A stretch of DNA of 38,910 nucleotides from a virus. The notes under the pieces are model-generated. The model was not told the origin of the DNA and did not search any database. It was given only the letters and a program-made list of their open reading frames with translations. Positions within the stretch are counted from its first letter, which is position 1. Every line of letters starts with the position of its first letter. This document shows, in pieces, positions 14,452 through 34,540 of this stretch. The DNA is taken from the IMG/VR virus record IMGVR_UViG_3300024239_000353, positions 1-38,910 of that record. One strand, written 5' to 3'. A program made the translations under genes and the position numbers.

Positions 14452-14469
14452 CCCCTGCGGCGGCAGGGG
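14452..14469 (+). promoter_or_regulatory. 18-bp palindrome, copy 1 (upstream of lysis block)
   Basis: CCCCTGC-GGCG-GCAGGGG is a perfect 7-bp inverted repeat, followed by TAAACTC. It matches the boxes at 22740 and 34486. ATAAAT at 14485-14490 could serve as a -10. It lies 52 bases before the endolysin start, in the place of the Mu lys promoter. There is no run of T after the stem, so an ordinary terminator is less likely but not excluded. Confidence 0.55.
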
Positions 14470-14521
14470 TAAACTCCCACCACCATAAATCGCACTCTCG
14501 CCTCGACAACACGAGGCGACG

Positions 14522-15358
14522 ATGAAGCTCATCACCATTGACGGCAAGGCCCTGCTCCGGGCGATCGCTCCGACCGTTCGCGGCTACAAGGGTGCCCGCC
14601 AGGGTCAGATCATCGACGCCTTCGGCGGCATGTTGCCCGAGGTGCTCGACCTCGCCGATGCCGAAACTCCCCTTCGCATCGCTCATTTCCTCGCGCAGGT
14701 CGGTCACGAGAGCGACGGCTATTCGGCGCTCGAGGAGTATGACTCCGGAGCCGCCTACGAGGGCCGCGTCAAGACGCTGGGCAACACCCAGCCGGGTGAC
14801 GGCAAGCGCTTCAAAGGGCGCAGCCTGATTATGAACACCGGCCGCCGCAATTATGCGGAGTTCGGCCAGTGGATCCGGCGCTGGCGTTCCGACGCGCCGG
14901 ACTTCGAGACGCGCCCGGACCTGATGGCGCAGTTTCCGTGGGCGGGCTACGCCGCCGCCTGGTACTGGCTCGTTCACAATCTCAACGCCTACGCCGACGC
15001 CGACGACCTGGTCGGCGCCACCCGCGAGATCAACGGCGGCAAAAACGGCCTCGCCGATCGCCGGGCCTACCTGTCCCGCGCCAAGAAGGCCGTCGCCAAG
15101 GCGTTCGCCGCCGATCTGCCGACGGCGCCGGCCCTGCCGACGCTGCAGCGCGGCGCCGAGGGCGACGCCGTCGAAACGCTGCAGCGTGCGCTCAACGTCG
15201 CCAACTCGCGGACACTCATGCTGGGTGTCGACGGCGACTTCGGCGCGGCGACCGAGCTGGTCGTCAAGCATTTCCAGACCATGCGCGGGCTCAAGGTCGA
15301 CGGCATCGTCGCCGCCAAGACCTGGGCCGCGCTCAAGCCCTACATCCGGGAGAGCTGA
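14522..15358 (+). CDS. Endolysin: GH19-type hydrolase with C-terminal peptidoglycan-binding domain
   Basis: This 278-residue protein has an N-terminal catalytic domain (about 1-200) that looks like GH19 chitinase/lysozyme: H-F-L-A-Q-V-G-H-E-S with Glu63 as probable acid, E-E-Y at 71-73, Y-E-G-R, and the K-G-R-S-L-I-M-N-T-G-R-R-N-Y motif (98-111). Residues about 208-274 form a PG_binding_1 domain (L-Q-R-G-A-E-G-D-A-V-E-T-L-Q, then V-D-G-D-F-G-A-A-T and V-D-G-I-V-A-A-K-T-W-A-A-L). It would cleave the peptidoglycan glycan strand at lysis. No signal peptide is seen, so release needs the holin. It is the first gene after the first palindrome box. Confidence 0.85.
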   Translation: MKLITIDGKALLRAIAPTVRGYKGARQGQIIDAFGGMLPEVLDLADAETPLRIAHFLAQVGHESDGYSALEEYDSGAAYEGRVKTLGNTQPGDGKRFKGRSLIMNTGRRNYAEFGQWIRRWRSDAPDFETRPDLMAQFPWAGYAAAWYWLVHNLNAYADADDLVGATREINGGKNGLADRRAYLSRAKKAVAKAFAADLPTAPALPTLQRGAEGDAVETLQRALNVANSRTLMLGVDGDFGAATELVVKHFQTMRGLKVDGIVAAKTWAALKPYIRES

Positions 15359-15361
15359 CCC

Positions 15362-15985
15362 ATGTTGTCCTACCTCATCCACCTTGCGCTCATCTTCCTG
15401 GCGCTTGCCGCCGTGTGTTGGCTGGTTTTCATGCCCGGCCGGCGGCCGAAGCTTGGCGAGGCGGTCCTTGGGATCGTCATCGCGGCGACGGCGACGTTCT
15501 TGGTCGCCCCCGCCTGGGCTGCCGACGCTGCGACCACGCACGTGACCATTCCGATTGGCGACATTCTCAACGAGCTGGCGGTGCCTCTGTTCGCGCTGAT
15601 CACCGGCATCATCACCTGGATGATCCGCAAGCTGCCCGGCGCCGCTAAGGCCTGGATCGATACGCTGCGCGTCGAGCAACTGTTGGAGCGAGCCGTTGCC
15701 TACGGCATCAACTCGGTGGCCGGCGCGACCAAAGACAAGGTGCTGGACGTCAACGTCCGCCTGCCGGTGGCGGCCTACATCCTGCAGTACGCGCTCGATC
15801 GTATTCCCTCGGCGCTGCTGTCCTGGGTGGGTGGGCCGACTTCGCTCGCCGAAATGATCTGGTCGCGCCTCGATATCTCCGAAAGCGGTGGCAGGCCCGA
15901 CCTCGAGTCCCTGGCGCGAGAAATTGCGGCCGGTACGTCCGTTCGGGTGGCCGTGGCCAAGGTTCGGGCGACCGGCGGATCATGA
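15362..15985 (+). CDS. Putative holin / membrane protein of the lysis block
   Basis: This 207-residue protein has three hydrophobic segments at about 4-24, 32-54 and 70-88, followed by a roughly 115-residue soluble tail that is partly helical (WIDTLRVEQLLERAVAYGIN). Position directly after the endolysin and before the spanin-like pair favours a holin. The long C-terminal tail is larger than in classic class I holins, so another envelope role is possible. It ends in an ATGA overlap with the next gene. Confidence 0.55.
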   Translation: MLSYLIHLALIFLALAAVCWLVFMPGRRPKLGEAVLGIVIAATATFLVAPAWAADAATTHVTIPIGDILNELAVPLFALITGIITWMIRKLPGAAKAWIDTLRVEQLLERAVAYGINSVAGATKDKVLDVNVRLPVAAYILQYALDRIPSALLSWVGGPTSLAEMIWSRLDISESGGRPDLESLAREIAAGTSVRVAVAKVRATGGS

Positions 15986-16209
15986 CCCTCGTCGGCAAGA
16001 TCGTCCTTGCCCTGGTCGGTCTCGCCGTTGCCTACTTCGACGCGCGGGCCAAGGGTGGGGACACGGCGTCGGCAACCGTTTCAAAGGCGCTTCGAAATGC
16101 TCTCGACGAGATCGCAAAGGCGGATGCGGCAAGGCTCGCGGCTGCTGATGCTGCCCGCCGCGATCCTGCTGGCATCCTGCGCGACGACGACGGATGGCGG
16201 CGGGACTGA
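15982..16209 (+). CDS. i-spanin-like membrane protein with helical periplasmic part
   Basis: This 75-residue protein has an N-terminal hydrophobic helix (VGKIVLALVGLAVAYF, about 3-18) followed by an Ala-rich charged helix (RNALDEIAKADAARLAAADA). That is the topology of an inner-membrane spanin (Rz type), although it is short. The o-spanin-like lipoprotein gene starts inside it in another frame, an arrangement known for Rz/Rz1 pairs. No sequence family is recognised; the call rests on topology and place. Confidence 0.5.
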   Translation: MTLVGKIVLALVGLAVAYFDARAKGGDTASATVSKALRNALDEIAKADAARLAAADAARRDPAGILRDDDGWRRD

Positions 16210-16357
16210 CGCGGCGGCGATGGAGCCGATCGCTCACGCCACGTTCTGCTCGGTCGCAAAGCCGATCACCTGGTCGTCGAAGGACACCGAGACGACGGTT
16301 GCCGAGATCAAGGCGCACAACGCCGTCGGCAAGGCGCTGTGCGGATGGGGGCGATAA
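16097..16357 (+). CDS. Putative o-spanin-like lipoprotein overlapping the i-spanin-like gene
   Basis: The protein has 86 residues from the ATG at 16097 (AAAGG nine bases upstream), or 77 from the ATG at 16124. A basic start, a hydrophobic stretch and a lipobox (L-L-A-S-C, Cys28) give a typical lipoprotein signal, followed by a Thr/Gly linker. The mature part has a conserved-looking C-x-V-A-K-P-I-T-W-S, then D-T-E-T-T, H-N-A-V and a final L-C-G-W, known to me from lysis regions of alphaproteobacterial phages. It would be anchored in the outer membrane and join with the i-spanin to disrupt it. It begins inside the preceding gene and runs 148 bases past it. Confidence 0.65.
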   Translation: MLSTRSQRRMRQGSRLLMLPAAILLASCATTTDGGGTDAAAMEPIAHATFCSVAKPITWSSKDTETTVAEIKAHNAVGKALCGWGR

Positions 16358-16548
16358 AGGAGATCCTGGCGCTCGTCCGGGTGGTGATCCGGATCAGTGG
16401 CGGGCGAGAAGAGAGAGCTGCCGGTTGGCTGGCGGCGATCGAGGAGACAACCCGGGAGGCTCGGGTGTCGATCGAGGCGGCGGACGAGAGCCGCCGACGG
16501 TTCCAGGAAAGGTACGGACCATGCGGGGATGCTTTGCGGCGGCGGTGA
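16345..16548 (+). CDS. Small amphipathic hypothetical protein
   Basis: This 67-residue protein starts at an ATG inside the end of the lipoprotein gene (a GTG at 16339 is also in frame). A hydrophobic/basic helix (AIKEILALVRVVIRIS) is followed by a charged coiled stretch (WLAAIEETTREARVSIEAAD). It overlaps the start of the nuclease gene by 28 bases. No family is recognised. It could be a peripheral membrane part of the lysis system. Confidence 0.4.
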   Translation: MGAIKEILALVRVVIRISGGREERAAGWLAAIEETTREARVSIEAADESRRRFQERYGPCGDALRRR

Positions 16549-17057
16549 TCGTGATGGCGCTGATGGTGCCGGCGGTTGCGGCGCCGATCGACCTGACCGG
16601 GGCGTCGATCGAGACGGCCTTTGCGCCCGGCGACGCGCCGGCCCGGCTGGTCGCAACGGCGATCGGCGAGGCCAAGACCGACGTCCGGGTGATGACCTAC
16701 CAGCTTTCCAACGGACGGGTCGTCAACGCGCTGCGCGCCGCCGCTCATCGGGGCGTCGACGTCCGCGTCGTCATTGACGGCAAGACCTGCGACGCCGATC
16801 GGCTGGTGCCGGTGCTCGACGTCCTCGACAAGGCCGGAGTGGCGTGGGGCTGCGACTACCAGCACCCGATCAACCACAACAAGGTGGTGATCGTCGATGA
16901 CCGATCGGTGGTGACGGGGAGCTTCAACTTCAGCCCGTCGGCCGAACGGAACGCCGAGAACACCAACTACATCCGAGATTCGCCGGCGCTGGCGGCCAGT
17001 TACCTCGCCGTCTGGACGGGGCACCAAGCGCACTCCGAGCCGCGCCGGGGGAAATGA
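16521..17057 (+). CDS. Exported PLD-family endonuclease (Nuc-like)
   Basis: The protein has 178 residues, with an N-terminal signal peptide (residues 1-20, cleavage likely after A-V-A). One HKD motif is complete: His119-x-Lys121-x4-Asp126, followed by G-S-F-N at 133-136 and a conserved Asn/Glu region. A single-HKD protein of this size fits the Nuc group, which dimerises to make one active site and cuts DNA without sequence preference. It would act in the periplasm or outside. Placed in the lysis block, it may degrade released host DNA or competing incoming DNA; this is inference. It ends in an ATGA overlap with the gp25-like gene. Confidence 0.8.
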   Translation: MRGCFAAAVIVMALMVPAVAAPIDLTGASIETAFAPGDAPARLVATAIGEAKTDVRVMTYQLSNGRVVNALRAAAHRGVDVRVVIDGKTCDADRLVPVLDVLDKAGVAWGCDYQHPINHNKVVIVDDRSVVTGSFNFSPSAERNAENTNYIRDSPALAASYLAVWTGHQAHSEPRRGK

Positions 17058-17377
17058 TGGAAGAGCTGAGGCAGTGGGCGCCGGCGATCGGCGCGCTGAT
17101 ATCGACGGCGGCAGCGGTGTGGGTCTGGTTGACCAGCCCGGCCAAAGCGGCGTCGGCCGCGGCGGCCGCCGTCGGCGATCGGGTCAACGCCGTGGAGCGT
17201 CGCCTCGACAAGGTCGAGATTGAGCTCAAGCACCTGCCGGATGCCGATGATATTGCCGACGTCAACCAGCAGCTCGCGCGCACCGTCGCTCGGATGGAGT
17301 CCCTCGAGCGTGAGATGCAGTCGATCAACCGCGCCCTGACCCGCGTTGAAAACCACCTTTTGGGGGCCGCCCAGTGA
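17054..17377 (+). CDS. DUF2730 family protein (Mu gp25-like)
   Basis: This 107-residue protein starts at the first of two adjacent ATGs (17054, 17057). One membrane helix lies at about 9-28 (APAIGALISTAAAVWVWLTS), followed by a long coiled coil (VNAVERRLDKVEIELKHLPD, then VARMESLEREMQSINRALTR). This is the DUF2730 layout of Mu gp25, always found before the terminase genes. The job is unknown; the topology also resembles an inner-membrane spanin, so it might take part in lysis. Confidence 0.75.
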   Translation: MMEELRQWAPAIGALISTAAAVWVWLTSPAKAASAAAAAVGDRVNAVERRLDKVEIELKHLPDADDIADVNQQLARTVARMESLEREMQSINRALTRVENHLLGAAQ

Positions 17378-17679
17378 CCGATTTTGTCGACAACATCACC
17401 ACGTCCCGTCGCCTCGCCACACTCCGGGTGGTCCGCGAGAACGAGGGCGCCGTCAACGAGAGCGTCTTGCGCAAGGCGCTTGAGGCCCTTGGCTTTCGCG
17501 GGCGCCTCCAGTCCGACGAGGCGCTGGCCGGCGATGCCGAGATGATGGAGAAGGCCGGCCTGACCAAGACACTCTATTATGCGGGGCGCGTCCGCACGCT
17601 CGAAATCACCGAGCGCGGCCGCAGCTTCCTGAAGCGCCATATCGACCCGGTCCCCGGCATCGACTATCCGGAGGCCTGA
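17374..17679 (+). CDS. Mu gp26-like small protein (winged-helix type)
   Basis: The protein has 101 residues from a GTG at 17374 that overlaps the previous stop (GTGA). It looks like a winged helix: R-R-L-A-T-L-R-V-V-R-E-N-E-G-A-V-N-E-S-V-L-R-K-A-L then V-R-T-L-E-I-T-E-R-G-R-S-F-L. The position between DUF2730 and DUF3486 genes is that of Mu gp26. It has no assigned function, but may help DNA recognition in packaging. Confidence 0.7.
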   Translation: MTDFVDNITTSRRLATLRVVRENEGAVNESVLRKALEALGFRGRLQSDEALAGDAEMMEKAGLTKTLYYAGRVRTLEITERGRSFLKRHIDPVPGIDYPEA

Positions 17680-17680
17680 C

Positions 17681-18247
17681 ATGGCGCGGCCCTCCAAGAT
17701 CGATCGTTTGCCGCAGGAGCTGCGCGACGCCATCGGCGACCTGCGTCGGCAGGGCCGCACCATCGACGAGATCCTCGCCCATCTGCGCTCGCTCGGCGTC
17801 GCGGACGTAAGCCGGACCGGCCTCGGCGAGCACATCAAGAAATGGGACGCGGTTGCCAAGCGGCTGAACGACAGCCGGGCCGCTGCCGAGGCGATCATGT
17901 CGCGCATGGAGGACCAGGGCGCCGACGACCGGATGGCGCGCCTCAACGTGCAGATGTTGCACGCCAGTCTGATGGAACTGCAAAAGGGCGAGGACGGCGA
18001 GCCGGCCCAGCTCGATCCCAAGGAGGCCGGCCAGATCGCCAAGGCGCTGAAGGATCTGTCCACGGCGGCACGGTCCGACCAGGTGCGTTACGTCGAGGCA
18101 AAAAAGCTGCTCGAGCAGGAGCGGCAGCGCGCCGACAAGGTCAAGAAGACGGCGGAAGATGCGCTGAACCAAGCTGAAAATGGTGGCCGCATGGCCGATG
18201 CGATGGCGGCGCTAAAGGCGATCCGGGAAGCCTACGGGAGCGCGTGA
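17681..18247 (+). CDS. DUF3486 family protein, probable small terminase subunit (Mu gp27-like)
   Basis: This 188-residue protein has the DUF3486 start R-P-S-K-I-D-R-L-P-Q-E-L-R and an HTH-like region (GRTIDEILAHLRSLGVADVS) for DNA binding. A long helical, charged middle and C-terminus follow, suited to oligomerisation. It is directly upstream of the large terminase, with which it overlaps by four bases. It would recognise the pac site near the phage end and present DNA to the motor. Confidence 0.8.
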   Translation: MARPSKIDRLPQELRDAIGDLRRQGRTIDEILAHLRSLGVADVSRTGLGEHIKKWDAVAKRLNDSRAAAEAIMSRMEDQGADDRMARLNVQMLHASLMELQKGEDGEPAQLDPKEAGQIAKALKDLSTAARSDQVRYVEAKKLLEQERQRADKVKKTAEDALNQAENGGRMADAMAALKAIREAYGSA

Positions 18248-19605
18248 ACATGACACCGCTTCTCCTCAAGTATCAGCAGAAATGGGCGAAAGACAAAGCC
18301 CGTATGAAGATCGGGATGTTTGCCCGCCAGACCGGCAAGACCTTTACGACCACCTACGAGATCGTAGACCGAAATGTCGAGGCATCGATCCTCGGCAAGC
18401 GCGACCCGTGGGTGATACTCAGCCGCGGCGAGCGCCAGGCCAAGGAAACAATCGACGAGGGGGTCAAGCGCCATGCGAAGGCCCACGGATTGGCCTTCGA
18501 TGCCATGGACGGCTACGACTGGAAAAGCGACGCCGGCTTCAACTACACGGCTTTCGACGTCACCTTTGGCGACGGATCGAAGGTGACCGCCCTTCCGGCC
18601 AATCCGGATACGGCGCGCGGCTTTTCTCGCAATGTGTTTCTCGACGAGTTCGCCATCCATCGCGACAGCCGGGAAATCTGGGGCGCGCTGTTCCCCATCA
18701 TCTCGGCCGGCTGGGATATTCGCGTCACGTCGACGCCGAAGGGACGCCAGGGCAAGTTCTACGAGCTGATGACCGGCGACGACAAGGTCTGGTCCCGCCA
18801 TATCGTCGACATCTACCAAGCGGTCGCCGATGGATTGCCGCGCAACGTCGAAGAACTGCGCGCCGGCCTGGGCGACGACGATCTATGGGCGCAGGAGTTC
18901 GAGCTGCAATGGCTCGACGAGGCGAGCGCCTGGCTCACTTACGAGCTGATCGCCACCTGTGAGGAAGAACTCGCCGGCAAGCCGGAGTTCTACCAGGGCG
19001 GTGTATGCTTCGTGGGACGCGACATCGGCCGCCGACACGACCTGCACGTGATCTGGGTATGGGAGCTGATCGGCGACGTGTTGTGGTGCCGTGAAATCAT
19101 CGAGCAGAAGAGGGCGACGTTCGCCGAGATGGACGAGGCGTTCGACGATGTGATGGAGCGCTATCGGGTCGCTCGCGCCTGTATCGATCAGACCGGAATG
19201 GGCGAAAAGGTCGTGGAAGACGCGCAGCGCAGATATGGAGACAGCCGCGTCGAAGGCGTGCTGTTCACGCCGCCCAACAAGCTGATTATGGCAACGGCGG
19301 GCAAGGAGCGGTTTGAAGATCGCACTGTCCGCATTCCAGAGGGCAACAACGCACTGCGGACCGACCTGCACAAGCTCCGCCGTGTCGCCGGACCGACGGG
19401 CGCGTTCCGTTTCATCGCCGAGCGCGACGACGATCACGCCGACAGGACATGGGCCGCGTTCCTCGGCATCAATGCCGCCGGCAGCGAACGAGCCGAGTAT
19501 GCATACACGCCCGCCGGTGCCAGCAGTTCACCTGACGACGATGGTGAGAGCCCGCTTCTCTTCGACGAGTCCGACAGCCTGCTGCCCAACCTCAGGAGCC
19601 TCTGA
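18244..19605 (+). CDS. Terminase large subunit (Mu gp28-like)
   Basis: The protein has 453 residues from a GTG at 18244 (GTGA overlap) or an ATG at 18250. The ATPase part shows a Walker A region A-R-Q-T-G-K-T-F (27-34), an R-G-E-R-Q-A segment and Walker B N-V-F-L-D-E-F-A at about 128-135. The nuclease part has acidic residues expected of the RNase-H-like headful nuclease: V-G-R-D-I-G-R-R-H-D (about 258-267), A-C-I-D-Q-T-G-M-G-E and a late D-D-D-H-A-D. It drives packaging of DNA from the integrated phage. The C-terminal tail is acidic and Ser-rich. Its last base overlaps the portal ATG. Confidence 0.9.
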   Translation: MNMTPLLLKYQQKWAKDKARMKIGMFARQTGKTFTTTYEIVDRNVEASILGKRDPWVILSRGERQAKETIDEGVKRHAKAHGLAFDAMDGYDWKSDAGFNYTAFDVTFGDGSKVTALPANPDTARGFSRNVFLDEFAIHRDSREIWGALFPIISAGWDIRVTSTPKGRQGKFYELMTGDDKVWSRHIVDIYQAVADGLPRNVEELRAGLGDDDLWAQEFELQWLDEASAWLTYELIATCEEELAGKPEFYQGGVCFVGRDIGRRHDLHVIWVWELIGDVLWCREIIEQKRATFAEMDEAFDDVMERYRVARACIDQTGMGEKVVEDAQRRYGDSRVEGVLFTPPNKLIMATAGKERFEDRTVRIPEGNNALRTDLHKLRRVAGPTGAFRFIAERDDDHADRTWAAFLGINAAGSERAEYAYTPAGASSSPDDDGESPLLFDESDSLLPNLRSL

Positions 19606-21179
19606 TGGCGAAGAAATCGAAGCGCGGTCTGGTCGGGCCGGACAACAAGGCCATTGCCGCCTCGGACCTGGTCGGCGAGGCGTTGCCGCCGGACACGTCG
19701 TGGCGGTCGGTGCGGCCGTCGCAATATCCCTCGATGGGGATCACGCCTTATCGCCTGGCGCAGATCTTTCGCCAGGCCGACAACGGCGACCCGCGCGCCT
19801 TCCTGGAACTCGCCGAGGAGGCAGAGGAGAAGAGCGGCCATTACATGGCGGTGCTGTCGACCCGAAAGCGCGCGGTCATGCAGCTGCCGATCACGGTCGA
19901 GGCCGCCGGCGACGAGGAGCCCTACCAGCAGCACGCCCAGTTCGTGCGCGACTGGATCGAGACCGGCGTCGTGCAGGACTCGATGCTCGACATGCTCGAC
20001 GCGATCAGCAAGAGCTTCTCCGTCCTGGAGATAGATTGGCAGACGGACCGCGACCGTTTCTGGCCGAAGCGGCTGATCCACCGGCCGCCGACCTGGTTTG
20101 CGCCGGATCCGGTGGACGGTCAGACGATCCGGCTGCGCGAGGGCGTGACCTATGCACCGCTCGCCGAGCACAAGTTCGTCGTCCACACCCATCGCTACAA
20201 GAGCGGCCAGCTGATCCGCGGCGGCCTCGGCCGGGTGGCGCTGTGGGGCTGGATGCTCAAGATGTTCACCGACCGCGACTGGGCGATGTTCTGCGAGCGC
20301 TACGGCTTGCCGATCCGCGTCGGGCGCTACGAGTCGTCGTCGACCGACAAAGACCGGCGCGTGCTTTGGCAGGCGGTCAAGAACATCGCCGGCGACCTGG
20401 CTGCGATCTTCCCGAAGTCGATGGACGTCGAGTTCATCCAGACGGGACAGGTGGGGCAGTCGGCGGACCTCTACGAAAAGCGCGCCAAGTACCTCGACTA
20501 CGAGCTGTCCAAGGCGGTGCTGGGCCAGACGACCACGACGGACGCGGTCGCCGGCGGCCATGCGGTGGCGCAGGAGCATCGCCTCGTCCAGGAGGACATC
20601 GAGCGGTCGGACGGCGTCGCCGTCGGAACCACGATCACCCGCCAGCTGGTGCCGCTCATCGTCGCCCTCAACTTCGGGCCGCAGGACGAGTATCCGCGCG
20701 TCAACGTCGGCCGGCCGGACGAGCTGCCTGTCAAGGAGTTGGCGGACGCGCTGGGCAAGCTGTTGCCGGCCGGGCTGACGGTCAAGGCGTCGGAGATCCG
20801 GGGGCGCCTCGGCGTCAGCGATCCCGAGCCGGACGACGAGGTGATCGGCGGCAAGGCCACGCCGCCCGCCACCGAGCCGTCGGCGACGATCGGCGGCGCG
20901 CTGCAAAAGGCGCTCAACGCGCGCCAGCGCGGCAACGACCTGGCCGTCGAACGACTGACCGACCGCCTCGAGCGCGACGCCGCCGGCGCGCTCAACGGCC
21001 TGACCGAGGAGATCCGCGTGGCGCTGATGCAGGCAACCAGCCTGCCGGATGCGCTTACCCGCCTCGAGACGCTGAAGCTCGATGCCACGGAGCTGGCCAT
21101 CGCCATGCGACGCGGCATGGCGCTGGCCCACCTGGCCGGCCAGGCGGCGCTGATGGACGAGATCGAAGGCGAGCGCTGA
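19605..21179 (+). CDS. Portal protein (DUF935, Mu gp29-like)
   Basis: In this 524-residue protein the family features run in order: S-Q-Y-P-S-M-G-I-T-P near 40, a central K-R-A-V-M-Q-L-P segment, F-S-V-L-E-I-D-W and W-G-W-M-L-K-M-F-T-D-R-D-W-A-M-F-C-E-R-Y-G-L-P around 215-240, matching DUF935 portals. It forms the dodecameric ring at the capsid vertex through which DNA passes and to which the neck binds. It starts at the TGATG overlap with the terminase and ends three bases before the head morphogenesis gene. Confidence 0.9.
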   Translation: MAKKSKRGLVGPDNKAIAASDLVGEALPPDTSWRSVRPSQYPSMGITPYRLAQIFRQADNGDPRAFLELAEEAEEKSGHYMAVLSTRKRAVMQLPITVEAAGDEEPYQQHAQFVRDWIETGVVQDSMLDMLDAISKSFSVLEIDWQTDRDRFWPKRLIHRPPTWFAPDPVDGQTIRLREGVTYAPLAEHKFVVHTHRYKSGQLIRGGLGRVALWGWMLKMFTDRDWAMFCERYGLPIRVGRYESSSTDKDRRVLWQAVKNIAGDLAAIFPKSMDVEFIQTGQVGQSADLYEKRAKYLDYELSKAVLGQTTTTDAVAGGHAVAQEHRLVQEDIERSDGVAVGTTITRQLVPLIVALNFGPQDEYPRVNVGRPDELPVKELADALGKLLPAGLTVKASEIRGRLGVSDPEPDDEVIGGKATPPATEPSATIGGALQKALNARQRGNDLAVERLTDRLERDAAGALNGLTEEIRVALMQATSLPDALTRLETLKLDATELAIAMRRGMALAHLAGQAALMDEIEGER

Positions 21180-22603: not shown

Positions 22604-22795
22604 GGGCGATTGCCGATCGGGGCGGGCCGGTGTAGCCTCCGGACCGTGAATGGGCTTCCACGGGGCGATTTTCCCGTTTGAAACTCGTTTTAATCGCCAC
22701 CCTTATCCATGATGGCCCCGAACGGTGGTGGTGCGCGCACCCCTGCCGCCGATGGGGTGTATCGTGAGGGGTGCCCGTCGCATGGTCGGCGGGTC
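22604..22795 (+). promoter_or_regulatory. Late intergenic region upstream of protease/capsid block
   Basis: This 192-bp gene-free stretch contains TTTGAAACTCGTTTTAATCG (22677-22696), locally AT-rich, and the palindrome copy 2. A weak open frame starts at 22709 but lacks a ribosome site and runs in frame into the protease. In Mu the late promoter for the protease and head genes lies in this place. I see no clear -35/-10 pair, in keeping with an activator-dependent promoter. Confidence 0.5.
22740..22757 (+). promoter_or_regulatory. 18-bp palindrome, copy 2 (upstream of protease/capsid block)
   Basis: CCCCTGCCGCCGATGGGG has CCCC/GGGG arms in the same 18-bp spacing as copy 1, and is followed by TGTATCG, the same as copy 3. 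It lies 39 bases before the protease ATG. It is not next to a stop codon, so a terminator function is unlikely for this copy. Confidence 0.55.
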
Positions 22796-23845
22796 ATGAA
22801 CGAGACCATCGCCACCCTCATCCTCGAGCTCAATGCCGCCGATCTCGTCGACGGCAAAGATCTCTGGCTCCATCTTCTCCCAGCCGGCGAGTTCACCGGC
22901 GCCGACGGTCGCGGCCCCTACGTTCTCAAGGACCCGGCGGCCGTGATGAAGGCGTCGCTCGCTCGCGGCAAGATCGTCCTCGACGAATGTCACTCGACCG
23001 ACCTGGCCGCCCCCCGGGGCAGCCCGGCACCGGCGCGCGGCTGGATCGTCGAGATGAAGATGGAGGCGGACGGGATCTGGGGCCGGGTGGAGCTGAACAG
23101 GGCCGGCAAGGCTCTTTGGGACGATAAGGCCTATCGCGGAATCTCCCCGGTCATCACGGTCACCAAGTCTTCACCGGCCGAGGTGCGGACGATCGCCCGG
23201 GCGTCGTTCACCAACGACCCCAACCTCACTCTTCATTCACTTCACCAGAAGGCAGACACGATGCCGTTTCCGGAAGCACTGCTGACGCGCCTCGGTCTCA
23301 AGGCCGATGCCGACGAGGCCGCCGTCTCGGCGGCGATCGGCAAGGCGCTCGACCAGGTCGAAACCCACTCCAAGACGATCGCCTCGCTTGCGACGGCCGC
23401 CGGCGCCAAGGCCGACGCCAAGCCCGACGAGCTGATCGTCCACCTGCAGTCGGTGGTCAAAACCGCCGAGGCCGCCGGCGACAGCAAGAAGCTGGCCGAA
23501 ACGGTCGTGACGCTGCAGAGCCAGCTCGACACGCTCAGGGCCGACAACGCCAAGGACAAGGCGACGGCCTACGTCGACGGCGCCATCCGCGACGGCAAGC
23601 CGATCAAGGCGCTGCGCGACCATTACATCAGCCGCCACGCCAAGGATCCCGAAGGCGTCGAGAAGGAGGTCGCCGCCATGGCGTCGGTCCACTCGGGCGG
23701 CCTCGATCCGATCCGCCAGAAGGGCGCGACCCCGACCGCCGACGTCACCAACGTCGATGACATCATCACCAAGGCGCAGTTGCACCAGAAGGAACACCCC
23801 GGCAAGGCCTGGGCCGACTGCGTGCTCGCCGTCTCCGGAGGCTGA
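22796..23845 (+). CDS. Mu I-like head maturation protease with scaffold domain
   Basis: The protein has 349 residues from the ATG at 22796. The protease domain (about 1-150) shows the Mu-like prophage I pattern: L-W-L-H-L-L-P-A-G-E-F-T, D-E-C-H-S-T-D-L-A, then A-P-A-R-G-W-I-V-E-M and Y-R-G-I-S-P-V-I. The C-terminal half (from 156) is a long Ala/Lys/Asp-rich helix typical of a scaffold (VKTAEAAGDSKKLAETVVTL). It builds the prohead and then cleaves scaffold and itself. The nested start at 23261 would give the scaffold alone. Confidence 0.85.
   Translation: MNETIATLILELNAADLVDGKDLWLHLLPAGEFTGADGRGPYVLKDPAAVMKASLARGKIVLDECHSTDLAAPRGSPAPARGWIVEMKMEADGIWGRVELNRAGKALWDDKAYRGISPVITVTKSSPAEVRTIARASFTNDPNLTLHSLHQKADTMPFPEALLTRLGLKADADEAAVSAAIGKALDQVETHSKTIASLATAAGAKADAKPDELIVHLQSVVKTAEAAGDSKKLAETVVTLQSQLDTLRADNAKDKATAYVDGAIRDGKPIKALRDHYISRHAKDPEGVEKEVAAMASVHSGGLDPIRQKGATPTADVTNVDDIITKAQLHQKEHPGKAWADCVLAVSGG
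23261..23845 (+). CDS. Nested in-frame scaffold protein (Mu Z-like)
   Basis: An ATG at codon 156 of the protease, in the same frame, is preceded by AGAAGG at eight bases. It would give a 194-residue scaffold protein starting M-P-F-P-E-A-L-L-T-R-L-G, a start often seen in independent phage scaffold genes. In Mu, gene Z is made in just this way inside I. The site is seen; use of the start is inferred from that precedent. Confidence 0.6.
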   Translation: MPFPEALLTRLGLKADADEAAVSAAIGKALDQVETHSKTIASLATAAGAKADAKPDELIVHLQSVVKTAEAAGDSKKLAETVVTLQSQLDTLRADNAKDKATAYVDGAIRDGKPIKALRDHYISRHAKDPEGVEKEVAAMASVHSGGLDPIRQKGATPTADVTNVDDIITKAQLHQKEHPGKAWADCVLAVSGG

Positions 23846-25893: not shown

Positions 25894-26349
25894 ATGTCCT
25901 ACGCCACCACCCAGCAGCTGATCGACAAGTACGGCGAGACCGAGATCGCCCGCCTCAGCGCCGCCTATGGCGCCGAGGTGGCTGTCGACGGCGCGCGCTG
26001 CGCGGGGGCGTTGGAAGAGGCGACGGCGATCGTCGACAGCTATCTCCGGGCCCGCTACCAGGTGCCGCTCTCCGATCCGCCGCGCGAGATCGTGACCGCG
26101 GTGCTTATCATCGCCCGCCACGAGCTGGCCCAGGGCGACGGCCGCGAGCCATCGACCCAGATGACGGACGCCCGAAAGGAAACGGTCGCCTGGCTCGGCA
26201 AGGTCGCCAAGGGCGAAGCGATGATCGCCGGGGCGTCGTCGGGCGATGACGGCACCGCGATCGCCGATGCCGCCGGCGCCGACAGCGGCGCCATGACCGA
26301 GGACCGCGAGCAGGTCATCTACTCCGGCCGCTATGGGGGGATCATCTGA
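25894..26349 (+). CDS. DUF1320 head-tail joining protein (Mu gp36-like)
   Basis: This 151-residue protein starts M-S-Y-A-T-T-Q-Q-L-I-D-K-Y-G-E-T-E-I, the usual DUF1320 opening, followed by D-S-Y-L-R-A-R-Y-Q-V-P-L and I-A-R-H-E-L-A. In Mu, gp36 sits after the capsid gene and is thought to be a head completion/adaptor protein. The C-terminal part has a Gly/Ala/Asp-rich insert. Its last base is the first of the next ATG. Confidence 0.85.
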   Translation: MSYATTQQLIDKYGETEIARLSAAYGAEVAVDGARCAGALEEATAIVDSYLRARYQVPLSDPPREIVTAVLIIARHELAQGDGREPSTQMTDARKETVAWLGKVAKGEAMIAGASSGDDGTAIADAAGADSGAMTEDREQVIYSGRYGGII

Positions 26350-26930
26350 TGGTCGACCCCATCGTGACGCTTCCGGAGCCCAAGACGCAGTTTCACCGCG
26401 TGTTCGATGCCGTGTCGAACAGACTTCGAACGGTGTTTCCGGAGCGACTGTTCGACCTGCAGATGATGTCGGCAACGCCGTCGAGGGACGAGTGGCTGAA
26501 GGTCACGCGGCGCAAGCCGTGCATTGCCATCTCCTGGGTCGACTTCAAACCCGCGGCAGCGTCGCAGCGGCTGTTGAAAGGCGACGCGTCCTTCACGGTC
26601 TACCTCGTCGTCGACAATGCCGAGATCTCGCGCCGGTTCCTCGGCGACGCGAGGGGCGTCGGCCTGTTCGGCATGCTCACCGCCGCCAGCTACCTGTTGC
26701 ACGGTTTCACGATCGACGACGTCGGAACAATAAAAGTCACCGGCGCCAACGCGATCGAGCGGGCCGACTGGATCGACGAGACGACCGAGATCGCCGGACT
26801 GACGACCTCCATTCCGATGTCGGTCGGCGACGGCATCGCATCCGCAACGCTCGAGGACTTCCTACGCCTCGGCGCCAGCTGGATGGCCAACGGCGCCGAC
26901 GCCGGCTTCGGCACCATCTCCATGGAGTGA
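26349..26930 (+). CDS. DUF1834 family protein (Mu gp37-like)
   Basis: This 193-residue protein starts at a TGATG overlap. The order of features fits DUF1834: an N-terminal helix, a strand stretch W-L-K-V-T-R-R-K-P-C-I-A-I-S-W, then S-F-T-V-Y-L-V-V and a late Y-L-L-H-G-F-T-I-D-D-V-G-T-I-K-V. This group lies between the head completion protein and tail sheath in Mu and is taken to be a tail terminator or neck protein. The role is by analogy. Confidence 0.75.
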   Translation: MVDPIVTLPEPKTQFHRVFDAVSNRLRTVFPERLFDLQMMSATPSRDEWLKVTRRKPCIAISWVDFKPAAASQRLLKGDASFTVYLVVDNAEISRRFLGDARGVGLFGMLTAASYLLHGFTIDDVGTIKVTGANAIERADWIDETTEIAGLTTSIPMSVGDGIASATLEDFLRLGASWMANGADAGFGTISME

Positions 26931-28991: not shown

Positions 28992-29420
28992 ATGACCGCG
29001 CGAGACCAGACCAACACCGAAATCGTCGTCGACCTGGACGAGGCCGACAAGCCAGCGCCCGCCGTCGTCATTCCCGAAGGCGTGGACGCCGTCGAGACCG
29101 AGGCCGAGGACATCAAGAAGCTGCCCAAGGGCGCCATCCTCAACGAGAACGGATCGGTCACGCTGCCGCTTCTTTACCCCCGATCGGTGACCATCAAGGG
29201 CCAGGGCGGGGTGCGGGAAGAGCGTTTCGACGAGTTCCTGTTCCACCGGCTCAACGGCGCCGACATCAACGCCATTCGCGCGGCGTCCAAGGAGACCTCG
29301 CATATCGTGGCTCTGGCGCGGTCGCTGCACAAGCACGTCGCCATCATCAAGGCACTCTACGACAAGCTCGACAGCGCCGACATTACCCGGGCCGGCGAGG
29401 TGCTCGACAGCTTTTTTTGA
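28992..29420 (+). CDS. Tail assembly chaperone (Mu gp41-like), unshifted product
   Basis: This 142-residue protein starts at the ATG at 28992, one base after the tube stop. An acidic N-terminus is followed by the domain typical of Mu gp41: V-T-L-P-L-L-Y-P-R-S-V-T-I-K, then F-D-E-F-L-F-H-R-L-N-G-A-D-I-N-A-I and H-I-V-A-L-A-R-S-L-H-K. The end is D-S-F-F and a stop made from the last T of a T7 run. A shifted product extends beyond it. Such chaperones bind the tape measure protein during tail assembly. Confidence 0.85.
   Translation: MTARDQTNTEIVVDLDEADKPAPAVVIPEGVDAVETEAEDIKKLPKGAILNENGSVTLPLLYPRSVTIKGQGGVREERFDEFLFHRLNGADINAIRAASKETSHIVALARSLHKHVAIIKALYDKLDSADITRAGEVLDSFF
29412..29418 (+). promoter_or_regulatory. 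T7 slippery run for programmed frameshift in the tail chaperone
   Basis: The zero frame reads AGC-TTT-TTT-TGA, with seven consecutive T at 29412-29418. The downstream open frame (GAC-GTG-GAG) is reached by +1 or by -2 slippage, not by -1. Mu is known for a -2 shift at this gene pair. The stop codon directly after the run would pause the ribosome there. Confidence 0.7.
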
Positions 29421-29574
29421 CGTGGAGGAACGCGACCGGCGCCGGCGCATCGGCTACATCGCCGCCAATACCGGCTTCGGTCCCGACGTCATCCTGGCGA
29501 TGACGACCGATGAAATCTCCTTCTGGGCATCCTGCCTGTCGCTGCATTTCGAGTGGGTCAACAAGCAGAGTTGA
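29419..29574 (+). CDS. Frameshift extension of the tail chaperone (Mu gp41-prime-like)
   Basis: Open frame of 51 codons after the T7 run, translated D-V-E-E-R-D-R-R-R-R-I-G-Y-I-A-A and ending W-V-N-K-Q-S. It has no credible start of its own: the only early candidate is a GTG at 29422 without a ribosome site. The gap between the chaperone stop and tape measure start is otherwise unexplained. The peptide, with G-F-G-P-D-V-I-L-A-M-T and S-F-W-A-S, resembles the short C-terminal part of shifted chaperones. The full shifted protein would be about 193 residues (+1) or 194 (-2). Confidence 0.7.
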   Translation, partial: DVEERDRRRRIGYIAANTGFGPDVILAMTTDEISFWASCLSLHFEWVNKQS

Positions 29575-29583
29575 GGAGGTCAG

Positions 29584-31431
29584 ATGGGCGGGCGCGACAT
29601 GATCATGCAGGTCGTGCTGCGCCTCCGCGACGACCTCGGCGGCAAGCTCAACGGGCTGCTTGGCAAGATCCGCTCATGGGGATCGAAGGCCGTTTCGATC
29701 TTCAGCCTGGTCGGCCGCTCGATCGGGTTCATCTCGGAAAAGCTCGGGGCGCTCGGCCTGGTGCTGACCGGCGGCTTCGCGGCCGGCCTCAGGTCGCTGA
29801 CCGCCTTCGACGCATCGGCGCGCGATACCGCCATCATCCTCGGCAAGGCAGGCGCCGAGGCCGAACGCTGGATCAAGAAGACGGAAACCTGGGCCCAGAC
29901 GACGGCCAAGGCGGTCGGCCAGCGGTCGCAGGACATCGTCGGCGCCCAGAACCAATTGATCGGCGCCGGCCTGCCTGAAGACGCGGCGACCACCATGGTG
30001 CCGCAGATCGCCAAGGTGGCAACGGCCGCGAATGCTGCCCTTGAGGACATGACGACAACCTCCAAGGCGCTGTTCCAGAGCTTTGAAATCGGCGCCGACC
30101 GGATGGAAGCGAACCTCGCCAAGCTCTACGAGGCCGGCCGCCTGGGTGCGTTCGAACTGAAGTCCATGGCGCAGTACTTGCCGGAGATCGCGCCGCTGAT
30201 GGCGTCGATGGGCTCCAAAGGCGAAGGCGCGATCGGGCGGGTCGGCGCGCTGCTGCAGATCTCGCAGATGGGTGCAGGCGATCCGGCGACGGCCGCCAAC
30301 AACTTCAAGAATTTCCTGAGCCAGTCGACCGGCCCCGCTTTCAACAAGCGAATGGAGGAGATGGGCGTCAACATGCCCGCCGTGCTGGCCGACGCGGCGG
30401 CCAAGGGCATCGATCCTTTGGAAGCGACGCTCGCCAAGGTGCTGAAGGTGACAAACGCCGGCAGCGCCGCCGACAAGGCGGTCGCGGAGGCGAAGAAGCG
30501 CGGACTTTCGAAAGGCGATACCGAGCAGCTCGTCCGCGATCGCGTGACGTCGGCGATCGAGGCCTCCAAGCTTGGCGAGCTGTTTCCGGACATGCAGTCC
30601 AAGACCTTTCTGGCCACGTTCCTTCTGCATCGCGATGAGTATAAAGGGCTGCGCGACCAGATCAACGCGGCCGGTCTCGACACCACCAATGCCGCTTTCG
30701 ATACGCGCATGGCCGGCCCGGAGAAGCAGCAGCAGAGCGCCTATGAAAAATTCGAACAGTCGCTTCGGCGTCTTTCGGAGCCTCTTGAATGGATGGCCGG
30801 CAAGATGGGTGTTCTGGCCGATGGTGTCGATGGAACGATCAAAGCGTTGGACAGCCTGTCGCCGGCAATCGTCAACGTGGCGAGCGCCGCAGTGCAGGCC
30901 TGGGCCGTATTCAAAACCATAGGATTCGCTGCGGGGTTGCTGGGAATGAAGACGCCCGCCGCAGCAGCGGCTCCCGCAGCCGTACCCGCCGCAGCTGCGG
31001 CTTTTAGCCTCACGAGATTGGCCGGTGTGGCATCGACTGCCTATACCTCGCTCTACCCATTTTTCGAAATGGGCATGAACTTCGGCAGCCTGTTCGGTGG
31101 CAGGTCCAGTGAGGAAAACGCTGCCAATGAAAAAGCCGTGCAGTCGGCTCTTGATGACTACCATAAAAGGTGGGGTCCAGAGGGTTCCCCCCTCGACCAG
31201 GCGGTGAGCAAGTTCAAAGGGGCGTTCAAGCCGGGGGCGAACCCGGGCTATGACGCCTACGGAACCGCAGGGCCGATGCCGGGCTACAACCCTTATCCGG
31301 CCAACATGCCCCCGATCGGGGGACAGATCACGGTCAAAGTCGAAGGTCCGGGAACCGTAACGTCCGTAAGCTCCACCAACCCGAGCGTGCCGATCGTCAC
31401 TGATCGCGGCGCGAACGGCGGGAGGCCCTGA
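29584..31431 (+). CDS. Tail tape measure protein (Mu gp42-like)
   Basis: This 615-residue protein has its ATG behind GAGGAGG. The N-terminal half is helical and Ala/Gly-rich, with the tape measure core at about 80-260 (A-Q-N-Q-L-I-G-A-G-L, F-E-L-K-S-M-A-Q-Y-L-P-E-I-A, and A-G-D-P-A-T-A-A-N-N-F-K-N-F-L). A hydrophobic stretch lies near 440-480 (AAAAAPAAVPAAAAAF and neighbours). Its length sets the tail length; 615 residues suggests a tail of modest length, around 90 nm by the usual 0.15 nm per residue rule. The C-terminal tail is Gly/Pro-rich. Confidence 0.9.
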   Translation: MGGRDMIMQVVLRLRDDLGGKLNGLLGKIRSWGSKAVSIFSLVGRSIGFISEKLGALGLVLTGGFAAGLRSLTAFDASARDTAIILGKAGAEAERWIKKTETWAQTTAKAVGQRSQDIVGAQNQLIGAGLPEDAATTMVPQIAKVATAANAALEDMTTTSKALFQSFEIGADRMEANLAKLYEAGRLGAFELKSMAQYLPEIAPLMASMGSKGEGAIGRVGALLQISQMGAGDPATAANNFKNFLSQSTGPAFNKRMEEMGVNMPAVLADAAAKGIDPLEATLAKVLKVTNAGSAADKAVAEAKKRGLSKGDTEQLVRDRVTSAIEASKLGELFPDMQSKTFLATFLLHRDEYKGLRDQINAAGLDTTNAAFDTRMAGPEKQQQSAYEKFEQSLRRLSEPLEWMAGKMGVLADGVDGTIKALDSLSPAIVNVASAAVQAWAVFKTIGFAAGLLGMKTPAAAAAPAAVPAAAAAFSLTRLAGVASTAYTSLYPFFEMGMNFGSLFGGRSSEENAANEKAVQSALDDYHKRWGPEGSPLDQAVSKFKGAFKPGANPGYDAYGTAGPMPGYNPYPANMPPIGGQITVKVEGPGTVTSVSSTNPSVPIVTDRGANGGRP

Positions 31432-32708
31432 TGGCCGATCGCCTCGCCGCCATCCCGGGCTATCTGCGCGCCAGCTGGCGCGGCATCGCCTTTCACGCGC
31501 CCGACTTCCGGACATCGGCCGGCCGCCGGCTGATGGGCTTCGATCTGCCCGGTACCGATCGCACTCTCTTCGAGGATCTCGGACGCGCCAACGGGCCGAT
31601 ACCGGTGACCGGCTACATCCTGGGCGACGACATCGCCGCCCGCGGGCTGGCGCTGGAAGCCGCGTTCAATGCGCCCGGGCCGGGCACGCTCGTGCATCCG
31701 CTGTTCGGAGCCAGGCTGTGCATTCTCGATGAGAGCGGCGCCGAGCTGTCGGTGACCGACGATTTCTATCGAGGCCTCAAGTTTCAGGCGACGTTCCGCC
31801 GCTGGTCGGCGACGCCAGGCGCAGTGGTCTCGACCCTTGCGGCGATCGCCACGGCCGCGAGCGCTTTGACGGCGATCGTGGTAGGCGCGACCAGCCTTGC
31901 CGACGATCTGATCGGCGGGGACGTAGTCGGTGTTCTCAGCTCGTCCTGGTCGACGGCGATCGACACTCTGCCGTCGACGGCGATCGGCGCCGAGCTGGGA
32001 TCGGTGGCCGTCGGCCTGCGCATCGACGGGATGACCGTCACCGCGGCGGCCGCGTCCGTTGCCGACGCCGCCGGCGCCGCCACCTGGATCGCCTCGGCGT
32101 TCGGTCTCCTCGCCTCGGCCGGCGTGCCGCCGTCGTCGCCCTCGATCGGCGTGGGCCCGGCCGGCCGATCGACGGAAGCGGATACGGATCCGCTGACCAC
32201 GTCGCTGGCTCTCGCCGCCGTCGGAAACGCGCTCGCCTCCGAGGCCGCGTTGGCGGATCTCGAAGGGCAGTCGCTCGCCTGGCTGGCGGCGGCGATCGGC
32301 GCCATCCAGGCGCTCGTGGAGCCGCTAGCGGCGGTCGACTGGGAGAGCAGGCAGCAAGCGGAGGCGGCCCGATCGCGCCTGTCGGCGGCCATTTCGGCCG
32401 TCGCTGCCGCTTCGCTGTCTTCGGCGGCCGACAGCGACGACGGGCTGACGTTGCGCCACGACGCCTGGCGCGCTCTCGCCGAGCTGCGTCGGCGCATCCA
32501 CGAGGATCTCGACGACCGGATAGGACGCCTGCCGTCGGTGCTGACGATCGAGCCGCCCACCCGGACCAACGCCTGGGTGGTCGCCCAGTACGTCGCCGGC
32601 GACGATCCGACGGCCGTGCTGGCGGCATTCGAGGACATCGTCACCCGCAACGCGCTGGCCCATCCCTCCGTGGTCGACGTCGAGATGATCGAGGTACTGC
32701 CGCCGTGA
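31431..32708 (+). CDS. N: DNA circularisation / baseplate hub-adaptor protein (Mu gp43/N-like)
   Basis: In this 425-residue protein the N-terminal domain (about 1-125) has the conserved Y-L-R-A-S-W-R-G-I-A-F-H and G-R-R-L-M-G-F-D-L-P-G-T-D family pattern and L-V-H-P-L-F-G, as in Mu N. The long middle part is Ala/Ser-rich and low in complexity (residues about 130-330). The C-terminus has P-P-T-R-T-N-A-W-V-V-A-Q-Y. It joins tape measure and baseplate. The start overlaps the tape measure stop by one base (TGATG). Confidence 0.85.
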   Translation: MADRLAAIPGYLRASWRGIAFHAPDFRTSAGRRLMGFDLPGTDRTLFEDLGRANGPIPVTGYILGDDIAARGLALEAAFNAPGPGTLVHPLFGARLCILDESGAELSVTDDFYRGLKFQATFRRWSATPGAVVSTLAAIATAASALTAIVVGATSLADDLIGGDVVGVLSSSWSTAIDTLPSTAIGAELGSVAVGLRIDGMTVTAAAASVADAAGAATWIASAFGLLASAGVPPSSPSIGVGPAGRSTEADTDPLTTSLALAAVGNALASEAALADLEGQSLAWLAAAIGAIQALVEPLAAVDWESRQQAEAARSRLSAAISAVAAASLSSAADSDDGLTLRHDAWRALAELRRRIHEDLDDRIGRLPSVLTIEPPTRTNAWVVAQYVAGDDPTAVLAAFEDIVTRNALAHPSVVDVEMIEVLPP

Positions 32709-33940
32709 CCCAGAGCTGGTCGAAAACGCCGACCCAGCGGGTGACGCTGGAGATCGACGGCCGCCGCTTCACCTCGTTCAATGAGGCGACCATCACGCGC
32801 GACCTCGGCGAGGTATGCTCTTCATTCGACCTGATGACGGACGATATTGCCCGGTCCGCAGCGGCCTTGCCGGGCTCCCGCAACGTGGCTTCGAACGCCA
32901 TTCTAAAGCAGTTTCAGTCGGCGAAGATCTATCTCGACGGCGAGCTCGTCCTGAAGGGCTGGGTCGACGCCGTCTATCCCGAAATCACCGACCGAAGCGT
33001 CAGCGTCCGGATCTCCGGCCGGGACGTGACCGGCGACCTGATCGACTGCGCCGCCGCCCCCCTCGGGCCGGTCGAATACAAGGCTATCAAGCTCGAGGAT
33101 CTGGCCAGCAAGCTCTGCAAGCCATTCGGGATCACGGTAACCGCCGAGGTCGATACCGGCGACCCGATCAAGAAGGTGACGATCGAGCCGACCGAGACGG
33201 TGATGAGCGTTCTTGAGAAGTATGCCCGCAAGCGCGCCGTGCTGATCGTCTCCGACGGCGTCGGTGGACTGATCATCACCCGCTCCGGATCCGACCGCGC
33301 GCCCGGCGACATTCGCCTCGGCATCAACGTTGCCTATGGCTCGGGAGCTTTCGACGGCCGCGAGCGGTTCTCGGTGGTCTACGTCAAGGGACAGGCCGGC
33401 CACGCTGGCGGCAAGCGCAAGAGCAAGGCGGCGCTCGATGCGACGGCGGAACCGCTCGATGCGGTCCTCGATGGCGATGCCGATGCTGCGACCGGCCGGG
33501 AGGCGCGCGCCGTCACCATCATGGGAATTGCCTATGACGACGAGGTAGGCCGATATCGTCCGTCGGTGAGGACGCCACGCGCCTCCTCGCCCTCGGCCGA
33601 GGATCTGCAGCGCGAGGCCGAGTGGTACGTGTCGACCGCGCGCGGCGCCGGCGACAGCGTCGAGTACGATGCCCACGACTGGCGCGAGGGCGGCACGCTG
33701 TGGCGGGCCAACCAGATGACGCATGTGGTCGACGCGTTCCAGGACGTCGACAAGGATCTGCTGATCGCCGGCGTCACCTGGCGCTATGGCATGCGCGGCA
33801 CCTGGACGAGCCTGCGCGTCTGCGGCAAGGAGGCCTACGATCTTCTCCCCGAAGATGACGACGAGGGCGGCGGTTCGAAATCGAAGAAGAAGCGCACCAG
33901 GAAGACCGACGTCGACGTGACCGCGGAGCCGCTCGCATGA
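32705..33940 (+). CDS. P: Baseplate hub protein (Mu gp44/P-like)
   Basis: The protein has 411 residues from a GTG at 32705 in a GTGA overlap. The N-terminal domain shows V-T-L-E-I-D-G-R-R-F-T-S-F-N-E-A-T-I-T-R and V-S-V-R-I-S-G-R-D-V-T-G-D-L-I-D, as in the Mu gp44 hub. The C-terminus is basic and Lys-rich (SKSKKKRTRK). It forms the central trimer of the baseplate to which the spike attaches. ATGA overlap with the next gene. Confidence 0.85.
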   Translation: MTQSWSKTPTQRVTLEIDGRRFTSFNEATITRDLGEVCSSFDLMTDDIARSAAALPGSRNVASNAILKQFQSAKIYLDGELVLKGWVDAVYPEITDRSVSVRISGRDVTGDLIDCAAAPLGPVEYKAIKLEDLASKLCKPFGITVTAEVDTGDPIKKVTIEPTETVMSVLEKYARKRAVLIVSDGVGGLIITRSGSDRAPGDIRLGINVAYGSGAFDGRERFSVVYVKGQAGHAGGKRKSKAALDATAEPLDAVLDGDADAATGREARAVTIMGIAYDDEVGRYRPSVRTPRASSPSAEDLQREAEWYVSTARGAGDSVEYDAHDWREGGTLWRANQMTHVVDAFQDVDKDLLIAGVTWRYGMRGTWTSLRVCGKEAYDLLPEDDDEGGGSKSKKKRTRKTDVDVTAEPLA

Positions 33941-34485
33941 ACAAGATGTGGACCGAGATCGAGAACCGGCTTCGCGGCCTCGTCGTTCGTGCCAAGCCTC
34001 TTGCCATTGACGATTCCGGTGAAAGCCAGACGGCGTCGATCCGTACGCACAACGGGGTGGACCGCGACGACGTCGAGATCCTTCAGCCTTTCGGCGTTTC
34101 GTCGATGCCGCCGGCCGGATCTGTGATGATCGTGATGGCCGTCGCCGGCGATCAGGGCGATCTGGTCGGTCTGCCGGTTGGATCGCCCGGCGCCCGCATG
34201 GGCGGCTTGAAGGCAGGCGAGAGCGTCCTGTACGGCGCGGCGGGTCAGCGCGTCCATTGCAAGGCCGATGGCAGCGTCGACGTTTTGTCGGCGAGCAACG
34301 TCAAGGTGAAGGGCCAAAACGTGACGCTCGAGGGCGAGACCTTGACAGCCAAGGCGAGCGGGATCACGCTCGACGGACCGACCGTAATCAAGGGCGATCT
34401 CTCGGTCGAGGGTAGCGTGTCGATCGGCGGCTCGCTGACCGTTGGCGGATCGATCACCGCCGGCGGCACCATCACCGGGGGCTGA
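33937..34485 (+). CDS. V: Baseplate assembly/spike protein (Mu gp45/V-like)
   Basis: This 182-residue protein has an N-terminal OB-like domain (about 1-95) with V-E-I-L-Q-P-F-G-V-S-S-M-P-P-A-G-S-V, followed by a repetitive beta-helix tail (TVIKGDLSVEGSVSIGGSLT then VGGSITAGGTITGG) typical of the membrane-piercing spike. The tail lacks an obvious terminal His-x-His iron site; a separate tip protein or none may be used. It ends one base before palindrome copy 3. Confidence 0.85.
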   Translation: MNKMWTEIENRLRGLVVRAKPLAIDDSGESQTASIRTHNGVDRDDVEILQPFGVSSMPPAGSVMIVMAVAGDQGDLVGLPVGSPGARMGGLKAGESVLYGAAGQRVHCKADGSVDVLSASNVKVKGQNVTLEGETLTAKASGITLDGPTVIKGDLSVEGSVSIGGSLTVGGSITAGGTITGG

Positions 34486-34503
34486 CCCCCGACGCGGCAG
34501 GGG
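34486..34503 (+). promoter_or_regulatory. 18-bp palindrome, copy 3 (upstream of gp46-baseplate block)
   Basis: CCCCCGACGCGGCAGGGG, then TGTATCG (34504-34510), the latter identical to the flank of copy 2. The stem is imperfect (four to five pairs). It lies 37 bases before the gp46-like ATG, at the same distance as copy 2 from the protease (38 bases). It starts directly after a stop codon, so a terminator role is a competing view, but no T run follows. Confidence 0.55.
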
Positions 34504-34540
34504 TGTATCGGCCGGGGGCTATGGCCGATCCTTTGCCATC

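Follow-up and report, generated by a model that had tools for sequence, protein, structure and literature searches.

Palindromic boxes ahead of three late gene blocks of a viral contig as predicted operators of its own Mor/C-type activator

Introduction

What switches on the late genes of the viral contig IMGVR_UViG_3300024239_000353 (38,910 bases; hereafter the window, the record to which all copy counts below refer)? The question is raised by three palindromic boxes with CCCC and GGGG arms, each directly followed by a T, which stand ahead of the lysis, protease/capsid and gp46-baseplate blocks, and by a gene of the Mor/C family that ends beside the first of them. A sequence-only reading of the window had interpreted the boxes as sites at which the product of that gene activates late transcription, and had reported that there is no -10 element at a constant spacing from them. 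The interpretation is now supported, whereas the statement on spacing has proved wrong.

We consider it very probable that this Mu-like phage uses the boxes as operators for its own Mor/C-type activator, which would turn on the three late blocks by class II-like activation. Six lines of evidence support this assignment: the same three places are used in the relative G002; in distant relatives that carry a mor-like gene, a dyad particular to each phage is placed just after mor and before protease I; a -10-like hexamer lies at a fixed distance from the dyad; there is no -35-type promoter at copy 1; the geometry is near that of Mor on the Mu promoter Pm; and the hairpins of copies 2 and 3 are no better than those of shuffled sequences, with no terminator found at copy 1.

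Results

Three dyads ahead of three late blocks

All three boxes are where the sequence-only reading had located them, and each 18-bp core, with its flanking bases, forms a 20-bp dyad of the general form ACCCCTGC-NNNN-GCAGGGGT (clade consensus ACCCCTGC-CGCC-GCAGGGGT; Table 1). Copies 1, 2 and 3 stand 52, 38 and 37 bases before a start codon, distances that had been given correctly, and the genes directly downstream (an endolysin, a Mu I-like protease and a gp46-like gene) agree with the blocks that had been named. The genes downstream of the activator include those for endolysin, terminase, portal, Mu I-like protease and head protein, with the gp46-like baseplate gene after box 3. There is no fourth copy, and none had been noticed before: CCCC-N10-GGGG occurs nowhere else in the window, and the half-site CCCCTGCCG has three exact copies, one per box. 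When the record was scanned with a position weight matrix (PWM) built from the clade, the boxes scored 24.7-26.5 bits and the fourth-best place 10.6 bits; since that matrix contains the window boxes themselves, it is the gap to the fourth place that is informative.

Table 1. Positions of the boxes, hexamers, repeat and genes considered in this study (window coordinates unless another record is named)
Feature	Position	Strand	Description
Mor/C-type late activator gene	14037..14450	+	137 aa, GTG start; PHROG 836; presumed binder of the three boxes
Box 1, lysis promoter (predicted)	14451..14470	.	20-bp dyad GCCCCTGC-GGCG-GCAGGGGT; 18-bp core 14452-14469; place kept in G001, G002
Hexamer CACTCT	14493..14498	+	22 nt after box 1; predicted +1 near 14505; identical in G001, G002
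Inverted repeat TCGCCTCG-acaaca-CGAGGCGA	14498..14519	+	perfect 8-bp arms; fold z -3.3
Endolysin, first gene of lysis block	14522..15358	+	PHROG 9506, E 1.2e-58
Box 2, protease/capsid promoter (predicted)	22739..22758	.	20-bp dyad ACCCCTGC-CGCC-GATGGGGT; 18-bp core 22740-22757; place kept in G002, L068/L014
Hexamer CATGGT	22781..22786	+	22 nt after box 2; predicted +1 near 22793, ATG at 22796
Mu I-like head maturation protease, capsid block start	22796..23845	+	PF10123, E 1.5e-37; PHROG 328
Box 3, baseplate promoter (predicted)	34485..34504	.	20-bp dyad ACCCCCGA-CGCG-GCAGGGGT; 18-bp core 34486-34503; place kept in G002
Hexamer GATCCT	34527..34532	+	22 nt after box 3; predicted +1 near 34539, ATG at 34541
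Baseplate wedge protein (gp46-like), third block start	34541..35005	+	PHROG 180, E 2.8e-23
Fourth box of Pseudomonas phage Bise	L105 15915-15930		within end of one gene, before next (ATG at 15965); same spacing
mor-like gene of Thiobacimonas phage P1	L108 (KT381864) 26254-26643	-	ALF02072.1 vs PHROG 836, 1.4e-19

A -10-like hexamer at a fixed distance

The hexamers CACTCT, CATGGT and GATCCT each begin exactly 22 nt after the 20-bp dyad, which corrects the earlier statement that no such spacing exists. All three have the form xAxxxT and are unchanged in close relatives; in the -10 element of sigma-70 promoters, the A at position 2 and the T at position 6 are the two most important bases. No match to a sigma-70-like promoter was found at copy 1. 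The dyad centre lies 32.5 bp ahead of the first base of the hexamer, which would place it near -44.5 if the hexamer occupies -12 to -7, the +1 being itself a prediction.

When 22 non-redundant sites were compared across phages, 19 had the xAxxxT hexamer precisely 22 nt past the dyad, compared with 4 of 22 at the best other offset of 56. The few weakly symmetric dyads could have been steered into a favorable register; if the count is limited to dyads in which six or more of the 8 arm pairs are symmetric, 13 of 15 have the hexamer at 22 nt. All seven sites that were found after the spacing rule had been set fit at 22-23 nt; these are five in L113, L114 and L115 (at 22 or 23 nt) and two, with hexamers CAAGGT and CAATGT, in a Mu-like prophage on a Rhizobium lusitanum plasmid, the positions of the latter having been counted by eye, starting at the centre of the dyad. 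To admit the 23-nt cases, the rule has to be one base looser.

Of 14 protease genes, 13 have the end of the hexamer 6-7 nt before the ATG, and in the window the distance is 9 nt, compared with xAxxxT at 6-7 nt before only 14 of 184 other starts of long open reading frames. The predicted transcript start is therefore at or within 3 nt of the ATG, and judging from the hexamer position the late mRNAs of protease genes look leaderless or near-leaderless.

The flank TGTATCG is indeed common to copies 2 and 3, as had been noted. GTATCG or a near match (GTNTYG) directly 3' of the dyad, in the window at 22759-22764 and 34505-34510, was also seen in G014, L078, L079 and L082; it occurs at protease/baseplate promoters in several lineages, at about -34 to -29, and is absent at copy 1. 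This element could be a contact for sigma region 4 or for the activator. TGTATCG was rejected as a -10 lying directly after the box because the dyad centre would then fall near -23 and because copy 1 does not have it.

The same layout with different dyads in relatives

Scanning relatives for the box, a check that the sequence-only reading had proposed, returned exactly three copies in G002, a 45-kb relative whose activator is 77% identical; they stand at the same blocks as in the window (lysis, protease and gp46). One box was found in the 11.7-kb fragment G001, after its activator gene, and one in the L014/L068 fragment, immediately before protease I. When 2.9 million viral contigs were scanned blind for the box pattern alone, about 50 matches were obtained, mostly unrelated, with L014 among them. 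A capsid query identified 13 viral contigs at 45-49% identity, with a PHROG 836 gene in five.

Most of the distant relatives have their own dyad ahead of protease I, and in several of them the same dyad is found again just after the mor-like gene. These include G014 (ACCCGCAC-CCTG-GTGCGGGT) and G005 (CCCTGACACCTGTCAGGG), as well as G006, G007, Rhodovulum phage RS1 and Thiobacimonas phage P1. The last of these is described in the ThpS-P1 paper as lacking Mor (PMC5488378); we identified a mor-like gene in it (Table 1). In 8 of 10 genomes (with ties in two), a search of the whole genome with the protease box placed the best match at most 130 bp past the mor-like stop codon. Since these phages share a layout but not a dyad sequence, each activator would have its own site.

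The sequence-only reading had suggested asking whether box and activator co-vary. In part they do: the box differs by phage, box similarity rises with the likeness of the activators, and boxes agreed at 13.4 of 16 positions within genomes versus 7.6 between genomes (0 of 20,000 permutations), a contrast inflated by the use of similarity in the search for some of the copies. The activator and its sites thus appear to change together, although the correlation itself is weak, as detailed below.

The layout is not the only one among phages of this kind. Late gene starts of JBD25 (L110) have non-palindromic CTTCCAAAAGAC-like repeats and those of B3 (L104) the non-palindromic CCGAAAAG, which suggests another type of late promoter, and Shewanella MuM16-2 has hairpins at its late boxes. 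The promoter rule is therefore not universal.

The activator gene

The 137-residue product of the gene beside copy 1 matched PHROG 836 "late transcriptional activator" with an E value of 4.4e-14, the only PHROG 836 match in the record, in agreement with its initial assignment to the Mor/C family. Alignment to Mu-type Mor/C proteins with hhalign gave an E value of 1.1e-5 and a probability of 82%, and a GG..YIP-like motif is present in alignment A2 (GGTAVYVP), followed by a helix-turn-helix (HTH) with TENGVYKSLR. Activators of the window type have about 35 residues between YIP and HTH that are found in none of Mu Mor, C and the Bise protein, and these extra residues may go with the longer dyad. 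A search of the PDB with the single window protein sequence gave no match, and scans of genome contigs with the activator as query found no relative. A PDB search with the A2 profile was set aside as circular, because A2 includes Mu Mor and C.

Proposed mechanism and the evidence against it

We propose that the activator would be made as the last early gene product and would, as a dimer, occupy the 20-bp dyad from about -54 to -35. There it would replace the missing -35 and recruit or activate the host RNA polymerase, which would act on the weak -10 (xAxxxT) 22 nt downstream of the dyad in the manner of Mor on Mu Pm. The lysis, protease/capsid and baseplate (from gp46) blocks would thereby be turned on together, with starts at or within 3 nt of the ATG, and near-leaderless mRNAs, at the protease and baseplate genes, and a start about 17 nt upstream of the gene at lysis. 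Across relatives the layout would stay constant and the dyad would be phage-specific, each activator having its own site. The sites themselves, their number, placement, spacing and conservation are plain observations; that this activator binds them, that it activates at them and the position of the +1 we infer.

Several points weigh against this assignment. Three of the 22 sites need a spacing of 23 nt or are without a hexamer, the window hexamers match TATAAT poorly, and some distant dyads (in G006, G007, P1 and the Rhizobium prophage) have weakly symmetric registers. G009 has no box after its mor-like gene, the G007 match there ranks lower, and some of the second copies were sought by similarity or by eye. 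Activator identity correlates only weakly with box similarity (Spearman 0.37, Mantel p about 0.04, nine genomes, with the window clade counted as one point). As for the protein, it scored 18.2 bits against Pfam Mor (PF08765), below the curated cut-off of 24.9; that cut-off is no biological feature, but the activator is divergent. Its AlphaFold model, made from seven sequences, had a predicted local distance difference test (pLDDT) of 66 and no significant PDB match; this fold search, in which no Mor/C structure was found, was uninformative.

Alternative explanations

A palindrome alone does not name its protein, and the boxes might instead be operators through which another phage regulator (a repressor or Ner-like protein) or a host regulator controls the late blocks. 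We regard this as improbable in view of the fact that PWM matches above 10.6 bits are found only at the three late blocks, with none in the early region, and that in 8 of 10 genomes it is a mor-like gene which the best protease-box match follows; in addition, the distance from dyad to hexamer suits an activator that replaces a -35, and the change of sequence from phage to phage is not expected of sites for a host regulator.

Still less credit can be given to the idea that the boxes are RNA hairpin terminators between operons, an outcome that the sequence-only reading had itself named as contrary to its proposal. Copy 1 does fold to a perfect 8-bp stem, and a T run follows the mor-side box in L114 and RS1, but for copies 2 and 3 folding does not exceed that of shuffled sequences (z 0.63 and 0.15), none of the window copies has a T run after it, a search around copy 1 gave no terminator, and the fixed-distance hexamer would be left without explanation. 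The terminator reading was rejected on these grounds. Finally, GC-rich intergenic DNA could yield CCCC...GGGG by chance, and the bare eight-base pattern is in fact not rarer than expected (mean 1.45 copies in shuffles, with at least three in 19 of 100), for which reason it was dropped as evidence. What exceeds chance is the extended half-site and not the bare arms; with three places kept in G002, conservation in G001, G002 and L068 already contradicting it, and a fixed hexamer spacing across many phages, we give chance practically no weight. Operators of the phage's own Mor/C-type activator remain our preferred assignment for the three boxes.

Inverted repeats at the lysis and protease promoters

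A perfect inverted repeat with arms TCGCCTCG and CGAGGCGA overlaps the predicted lysis promoter, its 5' arm lying over -7 to +1 and its 3' arm over the ribosome site of the endolysin gene. The arms are unchanged in the window, G001 and G002 (fold z -3.3 and -3.5 in the window clade). This repeat would mask the ribosome site only in read-through RNA and not in RNA started by the activator; a comparable hiding of the site in read-through RNA only is known from T4 gene e. As a family rule, such an RNA switch of the lysis gene was rejected; the repeat is strong and conserved in the window clade but not in other phages and is therefore kept here as a side finding only. A second conserved inverted repeat, CCCGTCG-catggt-CGGCGGG at 22774-22793, places the -10-like hexamer in the loop; it lies just upstream of the protease start codon and is kept in G002 (CCCGCCG).

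Discussion

On balance, and by a modest margin, we lean towards the wider view that Mor/C activators of Mu-like phages follow one promoter grammar (a phage-specific dyad, 22-23 nt, then xAxxxT, with 6-9 nt to the ATG at protease genes), that late mRNAs are leaderless, and that activator and operators are swapped together, producing a late switch in each lineage that does not cross-react with others. Late promoters of the Mor/C type are already known, and what is new are the phage-specific operators; the open-access papers searched describe Mor and C sites in Mu, and in them we found none reported for other phages. The simple rule needs nothing but sequence to locate late promoters in many Mu-like phages, the activator-operator pairs are a natural series for working out the Mor/C HTH recognition code, and leaderless late mRNAs are a concrete prediction.

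Comparison with known systems

In Mu, C works through dyads at Plys, PI, PP and Pmom. In both Mu and the window the activator gene lies directly before the lysis gene, lysis and protease I each have a late promoter of their own, the sites are dyads and the -10 is non-consensus (PMC4461284, PMC4287176). The dyad sequence of the window, however, appears not to be that of Mu (no CCCCTGC dyad is apparent upstream of Mu lys and I), the third site precedes gp46 and not, as in Mu, gene P, and no mom site was seen in the window. Moreover, there is one activator in the window versus a Mor-to-C cascade in Mu, and the Mu I mRNA has a leader whereas the window protease mRNA is predicted to be near-leaderless.

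Mor on Mu Pm recognizes a 16-bp dyad centred at -43.5, in which a G/C-rich 6-bp spacer separates 5-bp arms; the promoter has a -10 but lacks a -35 (PMC4390567, PMC4287176). The window is alike in its -10-like hexamer, its missing -35 and its predicted centre near -44.5, and its central 16 bp (CCCTG-CCGCCG-CAGGG) likewise have 5-bp arms and a G/C-rich 6-bp spacer (PMC4390567). It differs from Mu in that the symmetry spans 20 bp, that in the protein the stretch from the YIP motif to the HTH is longer by about 35 residues, and that the activator is predicted to act directly on the late blocks.

Among other phages, RS1, P1 and prophages such as G014 and L114 share with the window the layout and the Mor subgroup PHROG 836; their dyads are different (for example, CTCCACAA-ACCG-TTGTGGGC in RS1), and no third box was identified in this group. 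Pseudomonas phage Bise (OR683401) differs in having a Mu-like Mor (93.6 bits in Pfam) without the extra residues and a 16-bp A/T-rich dyad, ACTAAAGCNCTTTAAT, which is found at lysis, protease, gp46 and one further gene, with the hexamer exactly 6 nt from the ATG at all four sites (22 nt, xAxxxT, 6 nt and ATG in 4 of 4). The first three of these are the places of the boxes in the window, with the same 22 nt to xAxxxT; that Bise and the window both have gp46 as their third place speaks for a recurrent arrangement.

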